Origin: a virus
IMG/VR virus record: IMGVR_UViG_3300025154_000889
Coordinates: 1-21,699 of that record
DNA length: 21,699 nucleotides
Strand: one strand, 5' to 3'
Shown here: piece after piece, positions 4,899-20,529 of the stretch
Position numbering within the stretch: position 1 is the first letter of the stretch
Layout of the letters: each line of letters begins with the position of its first letter
The notes under the pieces: model-generated
Told to the model about the DNA's origin: nothing
The model's input: only the letters and a program-made list of their open reading frames with translations
Databases searched by the model: none
Made by a program: the position numbers and the translations under genes

Positions 4899-5192
4899 TT
4901 ATTTCTTGAACTTGTTTACAAAATTCTTCATCATGCTGCTATGCTCTTGAGGCGTAACTATCTTGCTCTTCCTTTCCTGCTCAGCCTTAATAAGAGTCAT
5001 AACTGCTTTGAAATACTCAATCTTCATACTGTCCAAAAGTAGAGTAGCCTCAAGTACAGGAACCTTATTAACGGGTATACCAATCCAGAACATGCTTGTT
5101 TCCGGATTGAACTCCATTACGGGACCATCTACACGAGGGAGAGAAAGCTTTATTTCTTCTTTGGCGGGGGCTTCAGTAGTTGTGTTTTCCAT
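4899..5192 (-). CDS. Hypothetical protein cotranslated with the co-chaperonin
   Basis: This 97-residue protein has an acidic, Thr-rich N-terminus, a central segment with alternating hydrophobic residues (MFWIGIPVNKVPVLEATLLL) and a basic helical C-terminus ending NFVNKFKK. The central segment is not long or continuous enough to be a clear membrane helix. Its ATG overlaps the stop of the GroES-like gene as TAATG, so the two are translationally coupled. It might act with the co-chaperonin or in head assembly. No family is recognised. Confidence 0.6.
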   Translation of the reverse strand: MENTTTEAPAKEEIKLSLPRVDGPVMEFNPETSMFWIGIPVNKVPVLEATLLLDSMKIEYFKAVMTLIKAEQERKSKIVTPQEHSSMMKNFVNKFKK

Positions 5193-5515
5193 TAGTTTAC
5201 CTCGACGGCAAGCATGTCTTCTTGTGTTATAATTATGTAAGTAGTACCGTCTTCAGTTACTATCTTAGGGCAATCTAAACTTACCGGAGAACACCACACT
5301 TTTTCGCCAATCTTAAGTTCATGCCTAATGTATTCAAAATCAATTTTGTCCCCGAGTATTACTACTTCGCCTTTCCAAGCGTCTGCCCTACGTTTTTTCT
5401 TTCTGTCTATAACGCTATCAGGGATATAAAAAGTGCCGACCTTATTTACATCATTCAACTGTTTAACAAGAATCCTGTCACCTTTCAAGTCAAGCCTCTT
5501 AATGTCACAATTCAT
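5192..5515 (-). CDS. GroES-like co-chaperonin
   Basis: This 107-residue protein matches the layout of the GroES family (about 95-100 residues). DRILVKQL at residues 13-20 corresponds to the family DRVLVK strand, then a loop with GTFYIPDS (the mobile-loop position, where GroES has a hydrophobic tripeptide that docks on GroEL), then KGEVVILG, then LKIGEKVW (family VGDxV), then GTTYIIITQEDMLAV (family EEYLIxxExDILAI) at the C-terminus. Phage GroES homologues such as T4 gp31 cap the host GroEL chamber to fold the capsid protein, which fits a gene in the head module. The loop between residues 28 and 45 carries an extra basic stretch (DRKKKRR). It has its own consensus promoter and an AAGGAGA site upstream. 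Confidence 0.82.
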   Translation of the reverse strand: MNCDIKRLDLKGDRILVKQLNDVNKVGTFYIPDSVIDRKKKRRADAWKGEVVILGDKIDFEYIRHELKIGEKVWCSPVSLDCPKIVTEDGTTYIIITQEDMLAVEVN

Positions 5516-5541: not shown

Positions 5542-5570
5542 ATTATACTAAATAATCTACGTATTGTCAA
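5542..5570 (-). promoter_or_regulatory. Perfect-consensus sigma70 promoter for the co-chaperonin
   Basis: TTGACA (5565-5570), a 17-base spacer and TATAAT (5542-5547) on the minus strand match the sigma70 consensus at all twelve positions. Transcription would start near 5535, about 20 bases before the co-chaperonin ATG, leaving room for its AAGGAGA ribosome binding site. A perfect promoter dedicated to this gene suggests a need for high or early co-chaperonin levels. Confidence 0.9.
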
Positions 5571-5572
5571 TA

Positions 5573-5749
5573 TTAAAAATACTCAATAAAGGCAATCTCA
5601 GATGCCTTAACCTTAGACACAAGAGCAGATTTGTAATACAGGTCTACAAATCCAGCCCAAGTATCACTCTTTTCCATCTTGTCGCACAAGAAACAAGCGT
5701 TATGAGCTGAACCAAGATTAACAACTATTTCGCCTTTAGAACCTTTCAT
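5573..5749 (-). CDS. Small hypothetical protein (58 residues)
   Basis: I place the start at the ATG at 5749 because AAGGAG lies seven bases upstream; an in-frame ATG 36 bases earlier (5785) has only a weak site and lies inside a predicted RNA hairpin. The 58-residue product starts MKGSKGEIVVNLG, has a CFLC pair near residue 20 and ends in a hydrophobic, aromatic segment (EIAFIEYF). The GEIVVNLG start and later strands suggest a small beta-barrel, but no family is clear. It is the only gene between the structured RNA region and the co-chaperonin promoter. Confidence 0.5.
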   Translation of the reverse strand: MKGSKGEIVVNLGSAHNACFLCDKMEKSDTWAGFVDLYYKSALVSKVKASEIAFIEYF

Positions 5750-5966
5750 ATAGTCTCCTTGTATATACTCCACCTTTCTGGGCATTGGCTTCCCCAGTTC
5801 AATGCTAACAACCAGCCAAGAGGTATCCTAGTTACATGCCCGAAGGTACTTGTTATCGTAGCGCCGCATAGTAGCGCAATCTCTTGAACTAAAAGCAATT
5901 TTTGTATTACCTTGAAGTTGCTTTAGAACTTCTCCAGCGTTTTATTTAAGGAGTTAAACGGGGCTC
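5750..5966 (-). other. Structured non-coding region downstream of the small-RNA terminator
   Basis: No gene with a ribosome binding site is visible here, but the minus-strand transcript would fold extensively. Visible pairings are GAAGTT/AACTTC with a 7-base loop, overlapped by AAAGCAA/TTGCTTT (the two cannot form together); a CC-UUCG-GG hairpin in the AAGTACCTTCGGGCATGT segment; and TTGGCT/AGCCAA overlapped by GCATTG/CAATGC. Upstream, GGAGTT (which includes part of the terminator) can pair with AACTCC. Sets of mutually exclusive hairpins are typical of attenuators and riboswitch-like leaders. It may be the leader of the 58-residue gene, or part of a longer RNA if the terminator is read through. 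Confidence 0.5.
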
Positions 5967-6006
5967 AAAAAACTCCCCCCAATAGGAGGCACGTCCTAAA
6001 GGGGGG
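5967..6006 (-). terminator. Rho-independent terminator with a 6-base loop
   Basis: On the minus strand CCCCCC pairs with GGGGGG, a UU/UU internal loop follows, then UAGGA pairs with UCCUA around the loop CGUGCC. The stem is followed by AG and six U residues (5972-5967). This is a strong intrinsic terminator placed only about 33 bases after the predicted transcription start. Its loop is the exact complement of the loop of the preceding hairpin. Confidence 0.8.
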
Positions 6007-6039
6007 TTACAAAGCGAGTCTGTTGACCGTGCCGCCAAC
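5967..6039 (-). ncRNA. Candidate 73-nt small RNA with complementary hairpin loops
   Basis: The promoter at 6046-6074 predicts a start at G6039. That base is the first of hairpin 1: GUUGGC pairs with GUCAAC around loop GGCACG (6033-6028). A 15-base linker leads to hairpin 2, the terminator, whose loop CGUGCC (5993-5988) is the perfect reverse complement of loop 1. The RNA would therefore have a 6-bp loop-loop (kissing) interaction within one molecule or between molecules, and would end in the U tract. Promoter, start, loops and terminator all fit together without adjustment, which is strong evidence for a discrete RNA. It sits immediately downstream of the large terminase gene. Its function is unknown; it could be a regulator, a dimerising RNA or a packaging-associated RNA. 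Confidence 0.72.
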
Positions 6040-6045
6040 ATAACT

Positions 6046-6074
6046 ATATTAGCACATTTACTTCTTTTTGTCAA
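6046..6074 (-). promoter_or_regulatory. Sigma70-type promoter of the small RNA
   Basis: TTGACA (6069-6074) and TAATAT (6046-6051) on the minus strand are separated by exactly 17 bases. The -35 box lies inside the last codons of the 39-residue gene behind terL. Seven bases beyond the -10 box is G6039, the first base of the hairpin described for the small RNA. Confidence 0.87.
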
Positions 6075-6177
6075 CACCTTTCTTTATTTCTTTTATTTTT
6101 TTGCGAAACCTTTCTTTCATTTCCTCGTCGAAGAGAGGGGTATTTATGGGCCTAAAAGAAGGAAGTTTTTTTATCAC
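6058..6177 (-). CDS. Short basic protein (39 residues, GTG start) overlapping terL
   Basis: A GTG at 6177 overlaps the terL stop as GTGA and has GAGGA eight bases upstream inside the terL 3' end. The frame runs 39 residues, from IKKLPSFRPINTPLFDEEMK to a C-terminus of mostly Lys and Arg ending GVDKKK. The overlap, the ribosome binding site and a sensible composition support a real gene, missed if only ATG starts are considered. It is basic enough to bind nucleic acid and might assist the terminase. Its function is unknown. Confidence 0.5.
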   Translation of the reverse strand: MIKKLPSFRPINTPLFDEEMKERFRKKIKEIKKGVDKKK

Positions 6178-7796
6178 GTAATTTTCCTCACACCGTATTT
6201 ATCACCTTGAAAATTAGGGTTAAACACCATGCTACCGTTACCACGCATGTAAATATCTTTAAACGATTTCTCGCTAGGGTCTAGGTCTTGTGTGTACTTA
6301 GAAGCAATAAACCAAGCTATTGCAAAGCCCATCACCCTGTCACTATAACAACCCTCTTGAGGCTCCATTGACTCGCCATCGTACACGAACGACCGCATTT
6401 CATCAATTAGTGCACTTGAACGAATCTTGATTCTGAAATCCTTGATACCCTCAGAAAGCTTATGTATCATCAGAGGCTTTGTGCGTTTGGTTGTTTCCCA
6501 GCCGTACAGTTGGTCTTTAGACTTGTAGGAGTAGTCTGACTTCTCACGCTTCCAAAGGTTAGAATACCCAAGCCCTATAAGTTTCTGCATGGTAACAGCG
6601 CCAACACCGGGCCAAGACTCAGGTATAAGCAGGGCATTGTTATAATACCTTCCAAGTGTGGCTAAAGTATCACCGAACTCGTCAGGGGCAATATGACCGT
6701 GGTATTCACCTACCTGTTCCATTTCGTTGATGTCTATAATCTCAGCAGTAGAGAAGCAACCGTTTTTAATACCCTCAGCCACATCAGCGCCTATTACGTA
6801 GGTATGGTTCTGTGTAGGCATTTTCCAGATACGAAGGTTGCCATTGTCCACAGGCTTAAATCTAACCTCCTCACCAGCATCGATGAGCAATCCACGCCAC
6901 CCCGGTTGCTTACAGAACTTTTCATGTTCCATAAGTGATATCCAGTCAAACACCATAGCAGAGGAAGATATGAAAGCTTCTTCAGCAGTAACAGGGTATT
7001 CCTGTGGGAAGAGTTCAACCTGTGACATATCCCTACGTTTCTTCCTTCGCCAAGCTATCTGCTCCATGTCGCAGTTGAATATGTCAACAAGGTCTTTTTC
7101 TTCCTTGCTTAAATCGTTAAACCCCTGTACGCCTTTGATACGGTAGGTATCGTCCAGCACCCAAGGTATAAATATGGCTTTATAGCGGGAGTTATTTTGT
7201 ACTGCTTTCTTCCAAAGCTGGTGAGCGAAGTTAATACCGTTTGCGGTAGTCTCTATCACACCCTCTGCATCGTCCATCAGGGCTTCTTCTACGGCAGTCA
7301 GGACTTCTGGGTCGTCCCAGTGGGCAAACTCCGAAAGATGGTAGTCTGTTATGTCCGAACCCCGACCGAACTTCTTGCTGCCAGCTGTCCCGATGTAGAA
7401 AGTCGAACCCGTGTCCAGGAACTCTATCATCCCTTCCGATTCCTTTATCTTCACGTTCATCGGCCATAAACAGTTCTTAACCATTGGCATAACACGCTCA
7501 CGGAACATCTTAACAGTAGCGTCATCGTTCTGAGTTAACATGATGGCGCGCTTGTTCTCTTGGAAGTTACACTTGTGTATAAACCGTGCTATGTTAAAGG
7601 TAGACATTCCTCCCTTGCGTGACTTTATGATGTAGTCAAACTTGGAGTGGTTCTCCCAGTAATACTTCTGAATTTTGTTTAGTTTAAACCTGACAAGCTT
7701 ATTGGTAGACTTGTCTATAATTTGGTAAGCTTTCTCAGCAAAAAAGATTAAATCTTCCTTGCACCTTCGCAGGATTTCTTCTTTGGTGATTTCCAT
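6174..7796 (-). CDS. terL: Terminase large subunit (packaging ATPase and nuclease)
   Basis: This 540-residue protein is the motor that cuts concatemeric DNA and pumps it into the prohead through the portal. The ATPase domain shows a Walker-A-like motif SRKGGMST at residues 59-66, the Walker B and catalytic Glu in DYHLSEFAHW at 151-160, and a TTANG coupling motif at 183-187. The C-terminal nuclease domain of RNase H fold shows GADVAEG (Asp338), a Glu at about 393 (IPESWPGVGA) and a late Asp at 486 (SDRVMGFAIAW), the usual metal-binding set. Length is typical. It starts five bases after the SpoVG stop and its own stop overlaps a 39-residue gene. Confidence 0.95.
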   Translation of the reverse strand: MEITKEEILRRCKEDLIFFAEKAYQIIDKSTNKLVRFKLNKIQKYYWENHSKFDYIIKSRKGGMSTFNIARFIHKCNFQENKRAIMLTQNDDATVKMFRERVMPMVKNCLWPMNVKIKESEGMIEFLDTGSTFYIGTAGSKKFGRGSDITDYHLSEFAHWDDPEVLTAVEEALMDDAEGVIETTANGINFAHQLWKKAVQNNSRYKAIFIPWVLDDTYRIKGVQGFNDLSKEEKDLVDIFNCDMEQIAWRRKKRRDMSQVELFPQEYPVTAEEAFISSSAMVFDWISLMEHEKFCKQPGWRGLLIDAGEEVRFKPVDNGNLRIWKMPTQNHTYVIGADVAEGIKNGCFSTAEIIDINEMEQVGEYHGHIAPDEFGDTLATLGRYYNNALLIPESWPGVGAVTMQKLIGLGYSNLWKREKSDYSYKSKDQLYGWETTKRTKPLMIHKLSEGIKDFRIKIRSSALIDEMRSFVYDGESMEPQEGCYSDRVMGFAIAWFIASKYTQDLDPSEKSFKDIYMRGNGSMVFNPNFQGDKYGVRKIT

Positions 7797-7801
7797 GAGT
7801 G

Positions 7802-8071
7802 TTATGCTACTTCAGATTCAAGTTGACCGCGGTAAGCGTTTAGGATTGCCACTTCCATCTTCTTGCGGCATTCCTGATTGATAGGATGGCAGACATCATT
7901 ATACTTTCCATCTTTGGATTTCATACTCGGCATACACACAACAAAGCCTTCTGGCTTGGATATGATACGGATTTTGCGGATACAGAACGCTTCGTCTATT
8001 ACTATGGAACAGTAAGCCGCAACAGGGGGTTCTTCCTTGACGACTTTTATATTTATACTAGTGATATCCAT
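7802..8071 (-). CDS. spoVG: SpoVG-family protein with a re-coded 5' end
   Basis: This 89-residue protein matches SpoVG over its length: MDITSINIKVV at the start, then an IVIDEAFCIRKIRI strand pair, GFVVCMPSMKSKDGKYNDV (family GLFVAMPSxRxxDGxxxDI) and CHPINQECRKKMEVAILNAY (family HPINxxxRxxIxxAVLxxY). SpoVG proteins are small nucleic-acid-binding regulators of cell division, sporulation and virulence in bacteria, and occur in some phages. I choose the ATG at 8071 because the family begins there; an upstream in-frame ATG would only add HNH-gene sequence. The first codons overlap the HNH gene by 14 bases and duplicate, with synonymous changes, a remnant at 8650-8671. AGGA lies 11 bases upstream, a long spacing. 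Confidence 0.85.
   Translation of the reverse strand: MDITSINIKVVKEEPPVAAYCSIVIDEAFCIRKIRIISKPEGFVVCMPSMKSKDGKYNDVCHPINQECRKKMEVAILNAYRGQLESEVA
8050..8071 (-). repeat. Re-coded duplicate of the spoVG start (downstream copy)
   Basis: The first 22 bases of the present spoVG frame encode MDITSIN and align without gaps to 8650-8671, which encodes MEITSVN. The two differ at six positions, five of them third codon positions and one a first position (Val/Ile). This copy lies within the last codons of the HNH gene. Confidence 0.7.
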
Positions 8072-8645
8072 GTTGTTTGTGTTCCTTTTTATGACAATCC
8101 ACACAAAGAGTTTCTCCATTATTTATTTCCCACAAAGGGGAATACTTCATTGCGGACTCATATATATTATCTTTCCCAAATATTTCTTTTAAATTGTCTA
8201 TAAGTTTTTTAAATCTTATTAAATGATGTGCATTAAGTTTTGGTTTAACCTTCCCACATTTTGCACACCTAAAACCGTCTCTTTGAAATACACTAATAAT
8301 CCAGTCTTTATACTTTCTTGAATTTTTTATTAGTTTTATTTCATCAGTAATACCGCCTTTCCAATTAGTACTACCAGACCCAGACCTTTCTTTTTTATAT
8401 GTTTCGCCCATGCATTTTCTTGAACAGTGTTTGCCAAAACCCCTATAAACCACATCTTTTCTAACAGAAAATTCTTTATTGCACACACAACACTTTGTTT
8501 TAACTAAAGAAATACATCCTGGTTTATACTCTTTTTTGCATTTTGTAGAACAAAAGTTATGCTTATTGTTTATTTTTTGGAATAAAGATGTTTTAAATTC
8601 TTTGCCACAATAAAAACATACAACAGAAACTATTTTCTTTCGCAT
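8058..8645 (-). CDS. HNH homing-type endonuclease inserted at the 5' end of spoVG
   Basis: From the ATG at 8645 the protein has 195 residues. Two zinc-binding Cys modules come first (CFYCGKEF...FCSTKC and CCVCNKEF...HCSRKC), then a TNWKGG motif common in phage HNH proteins, then the nuclease: CAKCGKVKPKLNAHHLIRF with the HH pair, the Asn in NNGETLC, and CVDCHKKEH with the last His. Such enzymes cut DNA to spread their own gene. The gene is AT-richer than its neighbours, which supports recent arrival. The start has no Shine-Dalgarno of its own but lies inside a 13-codon frame opened by the old spoVG ribosome binding site and start, so coupling is likely. A longer frame from 8714 overlaps the previous gene and is less likely. 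Confidence 0.85.
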   Translation of the reverse strand: MRKKIVSVVCFYCGKEFKTSLFQKINNKHNFCSTKCKKEYKPGCISLVKTKCCVCNKEFSVRKDVVYRGFGKHCSRKCMGETYKKERSGSGSTNWKGGITDEIKLIKNSRKYKDWIISVFQRDGFRCAKCGKVKPKLNAHHLIRFKKLIDNLKEIFGKDNIYESAMKYSPLWEINNGETLCVDCHKKEHKQHGYH

Positions 8646-10195: not shown

Positions 10196-10359
10196 GGTGA
10201 CTCCTTAAAATTGACCCCCACATTTGAGCATAAACTATGTAGCTTAGAGGCTTAGGGGGTACTTAAAACGTCTAAAACGTGCTCTCAGGTCACGGTATCC
10301 CTAGAGCGTATCCAGCATTCCGACCATAACCACCAATTAGTGATGGGTAACTGGATTAC
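10196..10359 (-). other. Structured leader of the PC4-like gene
   Basis: The promoter at 10366-10394 would produce a leader of about 160 bases. It contains ACCCCC (minus strand, from 10260) that can pair with GGGGGU (to 10214) around 34 bases, including a CATA/TATG mini-hairpin, and a direct repeat ACGTTTTA. A C-run/G-run hairpin also occurs in the small RNA near 6 kb. The AAGGAG site is outside the hairpin. No gene is seen in it. Confidence 0.4.
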
Positions 10360-10365
10360 ACTATT

Positions 10366-10394
10366 AATATAGCAGATTCACAAATCATTGTCAA
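10366..10394 (-). promoter_or_regulatory. Sigma70-type promoter leading the left arm
   Basis: TTGACA (10389-10394) and TATATT (10366-10371) with a 17-base spacer on the minus strand. It is the outermost minus-strand promoter seen and would transcribe the PC4-like gene and, by read-through, the packaging genes. Its start lies near 10359. Confidence 0.82.
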
Positions 10395-10604
10395 GTCCAA
10401 ATTTGCATTTTTGGGTGGTACTAGGAGGGGCCTAGGTATCATATCCCTGAGAGTCCAGATTCTAATTTCCTCCCCAGACCTGACATACCAAGGTACTTAA
10501 CTTAGTGGCTTTTAAAACGCACACGCACTGACGAGATATAGGTACTTCACCTTATCTAATAAAGAATTGGAGGGTGGGTAGTCACATCAGAGCCATTATA
10601 TATC

Positions 10605-10637
10605 TTTACATACGCGTTCGCATAGACTACATATAAT
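10605..10637 (+). promoter_or_regulatory. Possible rightward promoter in the control region
   Basis: TTTACA (10605-10610) is followed after 17 bases by TACATA, and TATAAT lies at 10632-10637 with a longer spacing of 21. Either arrangement is imperfect. It points toward the right arm but lies almost 700 bases from the first gene. Confidence 0.3.
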
Positions 10638-10702
10638 AACCTATATATATCTGATACAGTTAATAGCGTCTTAATTATATATATAACTAATCCCGCCCCG
10701 TA

Positions 10703-10744
10703 TTGTTAATAACTTGTTAATAACCCGTTTATATTGTTAATAAC
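10703..10744 (+). repeat. Three copies of an 11-bp repeat TTGTTAATAAC
   Basis: Exact copies lie at 10703-10713, 10714-10724 and 10734-10744. The first two abut, so the repeat period is one helical turn, and the third begins 20 bases after the second. GTTAATAAC is nearly palindromic. Same-face, AT-rich direct repeats like these are typical iteron or operator binding sites. Confidence 0.65.
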
Positions 10745-10924
10745 TCTATACTCATATTGCCTAATAATATATATATATAATATAGTCATCTATATGTTAA
10801 GTATATCATATGGTAAATAGTATACACTCTTATTATATAGTCAACCAATCTAATGGATATCACAATAAGTCTTTAGAACTATTGTGTTATAACTATGTTT
10901 ATCTATTCAATGCCAGACGTAAAA

Positions 10925-10959
10925 GTTAGCCTTGCCTAACAAAGTTAGCCTTGCCTAAC
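10925..10959 (+). repeat. Tandem copies of a 16-bp hairpin-forming repeat
   Basis: The sequence GTTAGCCTTGCCTAAC occurs exactly at 10925-10940 and 10944-10959, separated by AAA. Each copy carries GTTAG and CTAAC arms around six bases, so each could bind a dimeric protein or form a small hairpin. Two exact copies 19 bases apart suggest an initiator or repressor site. Confidence 0.65.
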
Positions 10960-11024
10960 ATTTTGCCATTTTTCCCATACTTACCGCTAGGTAGGTTTCA
11001 CCGTTACAAACCACAAAAGTAAAT

Positions 11025-11046
11025 CTTGAGCAAAACTTGAGCGAAA
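11025..11046 (+). repeat. Tandem 11-bp repeat CTTGAGC(A/G)AAA
   Basis: Two abutting 11-base units at 11025-11035 and 11036-11046 differ at one base. Nearby, CGTTACAAA followed by an A/C-rich stretch also occurs twice (near 11001 and 11143). These add to the repeat-dense character of the candidate origin. Confidence 0.5.
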
Positions 11047-11163
11047 GCTTAGGCCCTTGTAAATGCTATAGCCTTCCGCCGTTAAATTGCAACACTATAG
11101 CAAAAAGCAAGTAGCAAACATGTAAAAACCCCTTGTATTTCATCGTTACAAAAAACAAAACGC

Positions 11164-11193
11164 TTTACACAAAAACACGGCATTTGCTACACT
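11164..11193 (+). promoter_or_regulatory. Candidate promoter for the first right-arm gene
   Basis: TTTACA (11164-11169), an 18-base spacer and TACACT (11188-11193) are an acceptable but not strong sigma70 match about 125 bases before the first right-arm gene. It is the best match upstream of that gene. Confidence 0.4.
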
Positions 11194-11318
11194 TAAAACA
11201 TGGCAAAACACAACGGCGGCAACGGCAACACGGCCCACTTTAAACGCCATTATATATAATATATAGCAGATAAAAATAAGACAATTTAGTTAAATCAGAT
11301 AGTCATGGAGAAAATAAC

Positions 11319-17090: not shown

Positions 17091-17777
17091 ATGGAAGAGA
17101 AGAAACTATACGACAAAAAGTTCGTCCATATAGACAAGGTGGGACTAGAATTAGAGGGAGGGTGGGAGAATCCCCCGTCTTTCCAGATAGCAGGTGATTC
17201 TAGCGTCCACTGTAACGGGAACGAACTGGGAGAGGCTAGGACAGTCCCGCAGGATAACCTTAAAGACGTATTCAACGAGATAAACACAAAATATCCCGAT
17301 GATATAGACGCTTCCTGCGGTATGCACATCCACATAAGTATAAAGAATGGGATGCTTTTTCAGGTAGCTGATAAGAAGTTCCGCGATTACTTCATATATC
17401 GCATGGGATTACTTGCCAAATACCTTAGACATTCCGGCAATGAGACAGACTATAAGCGGTTCATCGCTAGGTTCAACAATAGCAATACCTATTGCAAGAG
17501 AGAGTTCGCACCTAGGGAACAGCTCAGAGGTGGCAACTCTCGTAGGACTATGCTCAACTTCTGTGCTTATAGGAAGTATAAGACTGTGGAGTGCCGTCTT
17601 CTGCCTATGTTTGAGAATCTTTCAAACGCTAGGATGGCCGCATATGAGGTAGTGGACACGTTCGAGAGTTACCTTGAAAAAGAAAGCGTAAACTACGAGC
17701 CTGTTGAGGTGGATATAGAGGTTAACAACTCTTTCTTCGTACCCGACAATGTTTCAATGGAGGTAATATGTGCGTAA
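17091..17777 (+). CDS. Amidoligase-family protein (COOH-NH2 ligase)
   Basis: This 228-residue protein has the motif order of the putative amidoligase family, related to glutamine synthetase and gamma-glutamylcysteine ligase: GLELEGG at residues 18-24 (metal-binding Glu), DSSV at 36-39, GEARTVPQ at 47-54, CGMHIHIS at 76-83 (family CGxHxH), RRTMLNF at 151-157 and KTVECRLLP at 164-172 (family TxExR). Such enzymes use ATP to join a carboxyl group to an amine, and are predicted to modify peptides or make metabolites. The next gene, overlapping by ten bases, is a class II glutamine amidotransferase, which could supply ammonia. GGAGG precedes the start. The substrate is unknown; the tagged peptides upstream are one candidate. 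Confidence 0.8.
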   Translation: MEEKKLYDKKFVHIDKVGLELEGGWENPPSFQIAGDSSVHCNGNELGEARTVPQDNLKDVFNEINTKYPDDIDASCGMHIHISIKNGMLFQVADKKFRDYFIYRMGLLAKYLRHSGNETDYKRFIARFNNSNTYCKREFAPREQLRGGNSRRTMLNFCAYRKYKTVECRLLPMFENLSNARMAAYEVVDTFESYLEKESVNYEPVEVDIEVNNSFFVPDNVSMEVICA

Positions 17778-19852: not shown

Positions 19853-20032
19853 ATGTTGTTTGGATTAGAGTTGGACAATTATGCCATAACCATTGCGCTT
19901 GTAGCTAGTTGCCTTAATTGGGTATTTCTTTGTTGGGCGATAGCCATAGACCCGAGTGAACACCATAAGGGGCATTGGACTACGAAAGATATATTTGAAT
20001 ACCGCCCCAAGGACAAAGGAGCCTCTAAATGA
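19853..20032 (+). CDS. Small membrane protein (59 residues)
   Basis: An ATG at 19853 with AAGGAGG upstream yields 59 residues. Residues 8-30 (ITIALVASCLNWVFLCWAIA) form one hydrophobic helix, followed by a polar, basic tail (HHKGHWTTKDIFEYRPKDKG), so it is probably a single-pass inner-membrane protein. A longer frame from 19772 would overlap the preceding gene without a site and is rejected. The stop overlaps the next ATG. Superinfection-exclusion proteins often look like this, but that is only possible. Confidence 0.6.
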   Translation: MLFGLELDNYAITIALVASCLNWVFLCWAIAIDPSEHHKGHWTTKDIFEYRPKDKGASK

Positions 20033-20529
20033 TAATCACGGAGAAAATGTTGAGCAAAGAAGAAAACCCATGTGATGATGGTCTGGCGTGGTTCAAGAAA
20101 GAACCCAACCACGATATGACGGCCTTGGTTAAGTCTGCCATAAAACAGGGTGGAGAACCCATGAATTATGTCGGGTGGGGCCTGTGTGCTGTAATGACCA
20201 AAGAACAGCGCATAGAGTGGGGCATATTCTCGGCTTATCAGGTAGCGCACCTATGGAAAGACAAGTCCCCCAAAGAATACGCCATATGGGACGAGTGGGC
20301 GAGTGGTAGGGATAGGTGCGCTACCGCTAGGGCCGCCGCTAGGGACGCCGCTAGGGACGCCGCTAGGGACGCCGCTTGGAACGCCGCTAGTGACGCCGCT
20401 AGGGACGCCGCTAGTGACGCCGCTTGGAACGCCGCTAGGGCCGCCGCTTGGAACGCCGCCCACAACAAAACGTTAGCCAAAATACTCCGTTACGGGGTTA
20501 AGATATTGAACGAGGGAGGGAGGAGATAA
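20029..20529 (+). CDS. Protein with eleven-fold Ala-rich 4-residue repeat
   Basis: The ATG overlaps the previous stop. The 166 residues comprise an N-terminal 95-residue region ([21 protein letters not shown]..., then [13 protein letters not shown] and [11 protein letters not shown]) and a repeat region at residues 101-144. The repeat consists of eleven four-residue units of the form [R/W/S]-[D/N/A]-A-A, then a short basic helix. A perfect four-residue period would give a helix with one charged and one Ala face. Similar repeats occur in phage and bacterial proteins of unknown role. The N-terminal part, with Trp and Asp-rich motifs, resembles no family I can name. Confidence 0.65.
20329..20460 (+). 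repeat. Eleven tandem 12-bp units (GCTAGGGACGCC type)
   Basis: The Ala-rich repeat is encoded by eleven 12-base units, with GCTAGGGACGCC as the common form and variants TGG-AAC and AGT-GAC. Repeats of this length expand and contract by slippage, so copy number may differ between related phages. It is GC-richer than the window. Antisense frames through it are artefacts of its periodicity. Confidence 0.85.

Follow-up and report, generated by a model that had tools for sequence, protein, structure and literature searches.

A candidate short RNA with complementary hairpin loops at a probable intrinsic terminator behind the large terminase gene of an uncultured phage

Between terL and the groES-like gene of an uncultured phage, the minus strand at 5967-6074 carries a promoter-like site followed by two hairpins whose six-base loops are exact reverse complements. 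The firmest reading is that this element most likely provides an intrinsic terminator at which the terL transcript ends, and that it would also yield an RNA of ~73 nt if the promoter at 6074 is used. The fuller explanation that we prefer, tentatively and at a little below even confidence, is a short terminated transcription unit in a lineage-specific insert, probably folded by a loop-loop contact in cis and acting as an insulator or small RNA.

The window, meaning the whole stretch of DNA analyzed, comprises 21,699 nt (positions 1 to 21,699 of IMG/VR virus record IMGVR_UViG_3300025154_000889). Its terL gene (6174-7796, minus strand) encodes a large terminase subunit of 540 aa (phrog_2, 3e-20; phrog_24361, 3e-14) that matches the TerL of Roseobacter phage CRP-7 at 31.6% (tblastn). 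Family matches place the terminase among the large T4-type enzymes, not the phi29-type, and the portal in the SU10 type. A SpoVG homologue (7802-8119; PF04026, 2.8e-26) lies directly upstream of terL. On the other side, a probable ORF of 39 aa (6058-6177, minus strand) begins at a GTG that overlaps the terL stop; its translation has no family match, and its codon-usage score of 0.68 is within the range of real genes. Beyond the element, the GroES-like (Cpn10) gene occupies 5192-5515 on the same strand (PF00166, 1.8e-5; phrog_3188).

Elsewhere in the window, divergent gene blocks are separated by a 1.1-kb noncoding gap (10196-11318), likely a regulatory or replication region. It contains TTGTTAATAAC repeats at 10703-10745, a 19-bp direct repeat, AAAGTTAGCCTTGCCTAAC, at 10922-10960, and many TATATA runs. 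A 12-bp tandem repeat, CCGCTAGGGACG, present in 11.3 copies at 20324-20459 inside a plus-strand ORF (20029-20529), encodes a four-residue peptide repeat. The segment at 17091-17777 has a weak amidoligase match (PHROG 2443, 3e-4; Pfam Amidoligase_2, 1.4e-3, below the cut-off).

Within the element, hairpin 1 (6022-6039, minus strand) has a 6-bp stem, GTTGGC with GTCAAC (GUUGGC/GUCAAC in RNA), around the loop GGCACG. A single-stranded linker of 15 nt (6007-6021; AGACUCGCUUUGUAA) leads to hairpin 2. The hairpin proper (6006-5975) consists of the arms CCCCCC-TT-TAGGA and TCCTA-TT-GGGGGG around the loop CGTGCC (CGUGCC in RNA), giving a stem of 6 bp, a UU/UU internal loop and 5 bp. Two bases, AG, separate this stem from T6 at 5972-5967. 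An earlier note on this DNA had described the succession of promoter, hairpin 1, 15-base linker, hairpin 2 and U6, and a check of the minus strand found it correct in every base.

The predicted fold agrees with this anatomy. The RNAfold minimum free energy structure of 6039-5967 (73 nt) contains exactly two hairpins at -29.3 kcal/mol, against a mean of -20.9 kcal/mol for shuffled sequences (z -2.7; 2 of 200 shuffles as good). Base-pair probabilities are 0.93-0.94 in hairpin 1 and 0.78-1.0 in hairpin 2. With its AG and U6, hairpin 2 (5967-6006, minus strand) has the form of a strong intrinsic terminator by sequence, fold and terminator scan: a GC-rich stem-loop with six GC bp at its foot, then AG-U6. 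As sequence anatomy, the GC stem and U-run agree with the earlier proposal that hairpin 2 is also a terminator. Elsewhere in the window, no promoter-like site has a strong terminator close behind it. The AG between stem and U-run counts against our preferred reading.

The promoter-like site itself (6046-6074, minus strand) is TTGACA-17-TAATAT with a TG extension, a 10/12 match to the consensus. The -35 TTGACA lies at 6074-6069, and the 17-nt spacer ends in the TGC of the extended -10, whose hexamer TAATAT lies at 6051-6046. Taken alone, this match is no better than chance: 4 kb of sequence holds 7 such matches against 7.7 expected, with no enrichment. In addition, the -35 hexamer sits inside the last codons of the probable 39-aa ORF. 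Both points count against a short terminated unit. The idea of a short promoter-to-terminator RNA with complementary loops is upheld as anatomy, with a promoter match that is within chance numbers, and a short RNA unit is a plausible reading.

Where such an RNA would begin follows from the usual distance between a -10 element and its start. Six bases lie between the -10 and hairpin 1, placing +1 at 6039 if transcription begins at the seventh base after the -10. The proposed start on the first base of hairpin 1 fits this distance; the word 'exact', which had been attached to it, is good to ~2 nt, and the start may be off by 1-2 nt. A start at 6040 or 6041 would extend hairpin 1 by a U-A pair, to 7 bp. 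The site at 6074 may be an old feature of the terL boundary, since in the nearest relative, L089, a 45-aa ORF at the analogous place behind terL likewise ends on TTGACA. The two small ORFs (5617-5754 in L089, 6058-6177 in the window) look unrelated, and both end on the -35 TTGACA of the next promoter.

The two loops, GGCACG and CGUGCC, are complementary at 6/6 positions, as first noticed, and the free 6-bp loop-loop duplex has a computed worth of -9.3 kcal/mol. With this base composition, one given pair of 6-nt loops would match perfectly with p = 2.8e-4. A count of neighboring hairpins (stems of 5 bp or more, 5-9-nt loops, gaps no longer than 60 nt) found one pair with fully complementary loops in the window, compared with none in 60 simulated strands and one in 1.86 Mb of other phage strands. 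Because about 0.02-0.05 such pairs are expected per whole window, the loop match is notable but not decisive; it is uncommon, yet within reach of selection from many windows. Partial complementarity over 6 nt or more, with loop lengths of 5-9 nt, is commoner, at 0.15 per simulated strand, 22 in 1.86 Mb of other phage strands and about 0.3-0.5 per window.

These counts bear on the simplest rival, a plain intrinsic terminator behind the terL operon, in which hairpin 1 and the loop match are coincidental and the promoter-like site is unused. We regard this as a serious possibility, clearly short of an even chance. The frequency of partial matches, the chance-level promoter, the selection of this finding from many and the lack of conservation in relatives all argue for it. 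Set against this, equal-length, fully complementary loops are much rarer than partial matches, the loop pair sits exactly where a short RNA would be made, and the fold beats 198/200 shuffles.

Relatives were found by TerL and portal searches, which returned six phages and, among bacterial genome contigs, no relative. TerL identity is 79% for L089, 63% for L007, 56% for L008, 54% for L009 and 50% for L093; portal identity is 73-74% for L089 and 54% for L115. All six have a groES-like gene behind terL, either directly or, in L089, after the small ORF. In four of the six, a promoter lies between the two genes, matching the consensus at 12/12 (L089 and L007), 11/12 (L008) and 10/12 (L115). Its counterpart in the window, identified by promoter scan, is the perfect TTGACA-17-TATAAT at 5542-5570 (minus strand), the promoter of the groES-like gene. 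The hairpins are absent between terL and groES in 6/6 relatives, and comparison of the unit's DNA with the whole records of L089, L007, L008, L009 and L093, several of which are fragments, gave no real match.

In the window, ~500 bp are inserted between terL and groES, comprising the RNA unit, a 214-nt noncoding stretch and a gene of 58 aa. Since the hairpins are missing from the terL-groES region of the relatives and the whole-record DNA search returned no real match, the insert appears private to this virus's lineage, known from the window and a second, near-identical contig. That contig (L001/L103/L112) differs only in two bases at the left end of the window and thus offers no variation to test. 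Compared by DNA similarity with phages and plasmids, the insert matched either nothing or chance stretches of 20-23 nt. Searches with the loops left free gave one match for hairpin 1, in unrelated sequence; those for hairpin 2 gave only unrelated terminators with A+T-rich loops, and nothing in bacterial genomes. An exact copy of the hairpin 1 18-mer in another phage (L002) is judged a chance match in unrelated GC-rich sequence. The noncoding position of the unit, within a block that the six relatives lack, counts for the short terminated unit; that none of them has the RNA counts against it.

The remainder of the insert raises two further readings. The 214-nt stretch from the terminator to the next gene (5753-5966, minus strand) has no coding-like frame, a 50-aa TTG frame across it having been ruled out by codon usage, and its minimum free energy is no better than that of shuffles. 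By eye, a possible H-type pseudoknot (TTGGCT..CTGGG..AGCCAA..CCCAG) can be seen on this strand at about 5778-5820, just ahead of the 58-aa gene's start. That gene (5573-5750, minus strand) begins at ATG 5750 behind AAGGAG and has a coding-like codon score of 0.30; an alternative ATG at 5785 would give 70 aa. Homology and profile searches found no relatives and no family matches for the product, and its predicted structure is of low confidence (pLDDT 48).

The element could attenuate the 58-aa gene from within its 5' leader, with a GGC-GGCACG/CGUGCC-UCC helix competing with the terminator and read-through transcribing the gene. Consistent with this, nascent RNA of 57 nt, in which hairpin 2 is incomplete, is predicted to form a long-range helix that pairs both loop sequences (-14.8 kcal/mol), a noncoding leader of 214 nt follows the terminator, and the scan found no other promoter-like site upstream of the gene at its threshold. 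By 65 nt, however, the complete terminator fold is clearly favored (-28.7 kcal/mol); hairpin 1 displays its sequence in a loop and does not hide it in a stem, and the RNA has no ligand-like conserved element and no Rfam match. We consider attenuation unlikely. The order of promoter, small RNA, terminator and small gene expressed by read-through also recalls type III toxin-antitoxin loci, in which a tandem-repeat RNA accompanies a ToxN/CptN/TenpN gene, and the block is a private insert. The RNA here contains no tandem repeat, the 58-aa product lacks a family match and is far shorter than ToxN-type toxins, and its gene lies 214 nt away, making an RNA-antitoxin-like unit very improbable.

If the unit is a short terminated one, its operation would likely involve the following steps. 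RNA polymerase starting at ~6039 would transcribe hairpin 1 first and release an RNA of ~73 nt at the U-run of hairpin 2. Read-out transcripts from terL would stop at this same site, so that hairpin 2 would most likely serve as an intrinsic terminator dividing the terL portion of the operon from the inserted gene of 58 aa and from the groES operon, the latter having its own strong promoter beyond hairpin 2. The two six-base loops would most likely meet within one molecule: a linker of 15 nt (16 steps of ~6 Å each) can span the ~70 Å rod of stacked hairpin 1, kiss and hairpin 2 by our estimate. Such a contact would make the RNA compact and protect both of its ends, the 5' one in a stem and the 3' one at a terminator, as in stable small RNAs. 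Transcription, termination, the contact in cis and any regulatory action are all steps that we infer from the sequence. Against this reading, a scan of 43 likely ribosome-binding regions in the phage's own genome found no significant pairing partner for the RNA, and no exact complement to it beyond 10 nt turned up. A bolder version, in which a kiss between the 5' hairpin and the terminator closes the small RNA on itself or links copies, acquired by one lineage beside terL and with a function in infection unlike that of known phage RNAs, seems improbable.

The position beside terL had also led to the suggestion of a packaging role, with an intramolecular fold or attenuator named as simpler, a view that we judge right. 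Assembly in trans through loop-loop contacts into dimers or rings for DNA packaging formally requires that one RNA carry two distinct loops able to pair with each other; this RNA does so and adjoins terL, and nothing else speaks for it. The unit is missing at this locus in relatives with TerL up to 79% identical, the terminase is T4-type, and the linker permits a contact in cis, which would be expected to win at low concentration. At gathering scores, Rfam matched nothing anywhere in the window; with relaxed limits, it gave no relevant match at 5560-6200. A packaging role is unlikely, and assembly of this kind in trans most improbable. Because all six related phages found lack the RNA at the locus, it probably serves a single lineage as a terminator or small regulatory RNA and does not belong to the packaging machinery. 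Taken together, the evidence favors the ordinary reading of a lineage-specific insert with a strong terminator.

Several known systems invite comparison with the candidate, and literature searches yielded no described RNA of this kind. Assembly in trans would make it a rare natural case of a multimerizing RNA. TAR-TAR* and ColE1 RNA I/RNA II are kissing complexes of 6-7-nt loops, and like them the loops here are able to pair throughout; here, however, a single short RNA carries both, connected by 15 nt. Provided that the RNA is made and its loops pair, a terminator hairpin would here form half of a tertiary contact, a minimal natural example of such use that could serve studies of small-RNA stability or termination. 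The phi29 pRNA is recognized by a three-way junction with two interlocking loops (PMC5340915; PMC7357161). The candidate shares with it two distinct hairpins with mutually complementary loops and differs in having 6 instead of 4 loop pairs, a length of 73 nt and a fold of two separate hairpins lacking a three-way junction, besides its absence from Rfam and from relatives and its other terminase type. Among the small RNAs that phages encode with a promoter and a terminator of their own are lambda OOP, P22 sar and DicF (see also the review PMC12197685); the candidate resembles them in predicted size, predicted 3' terminator and noncoding character and has no sequence relation to them. Finally, the element shares with the intrinsic (Rho-independent) terminators of phage operons its place at a gene boundary and its GC-rich stem with a U-run behind it, and departs from them in a loop fully complementary to that of the preceding hairpin and in a promoter-like site 40 nt upstream.
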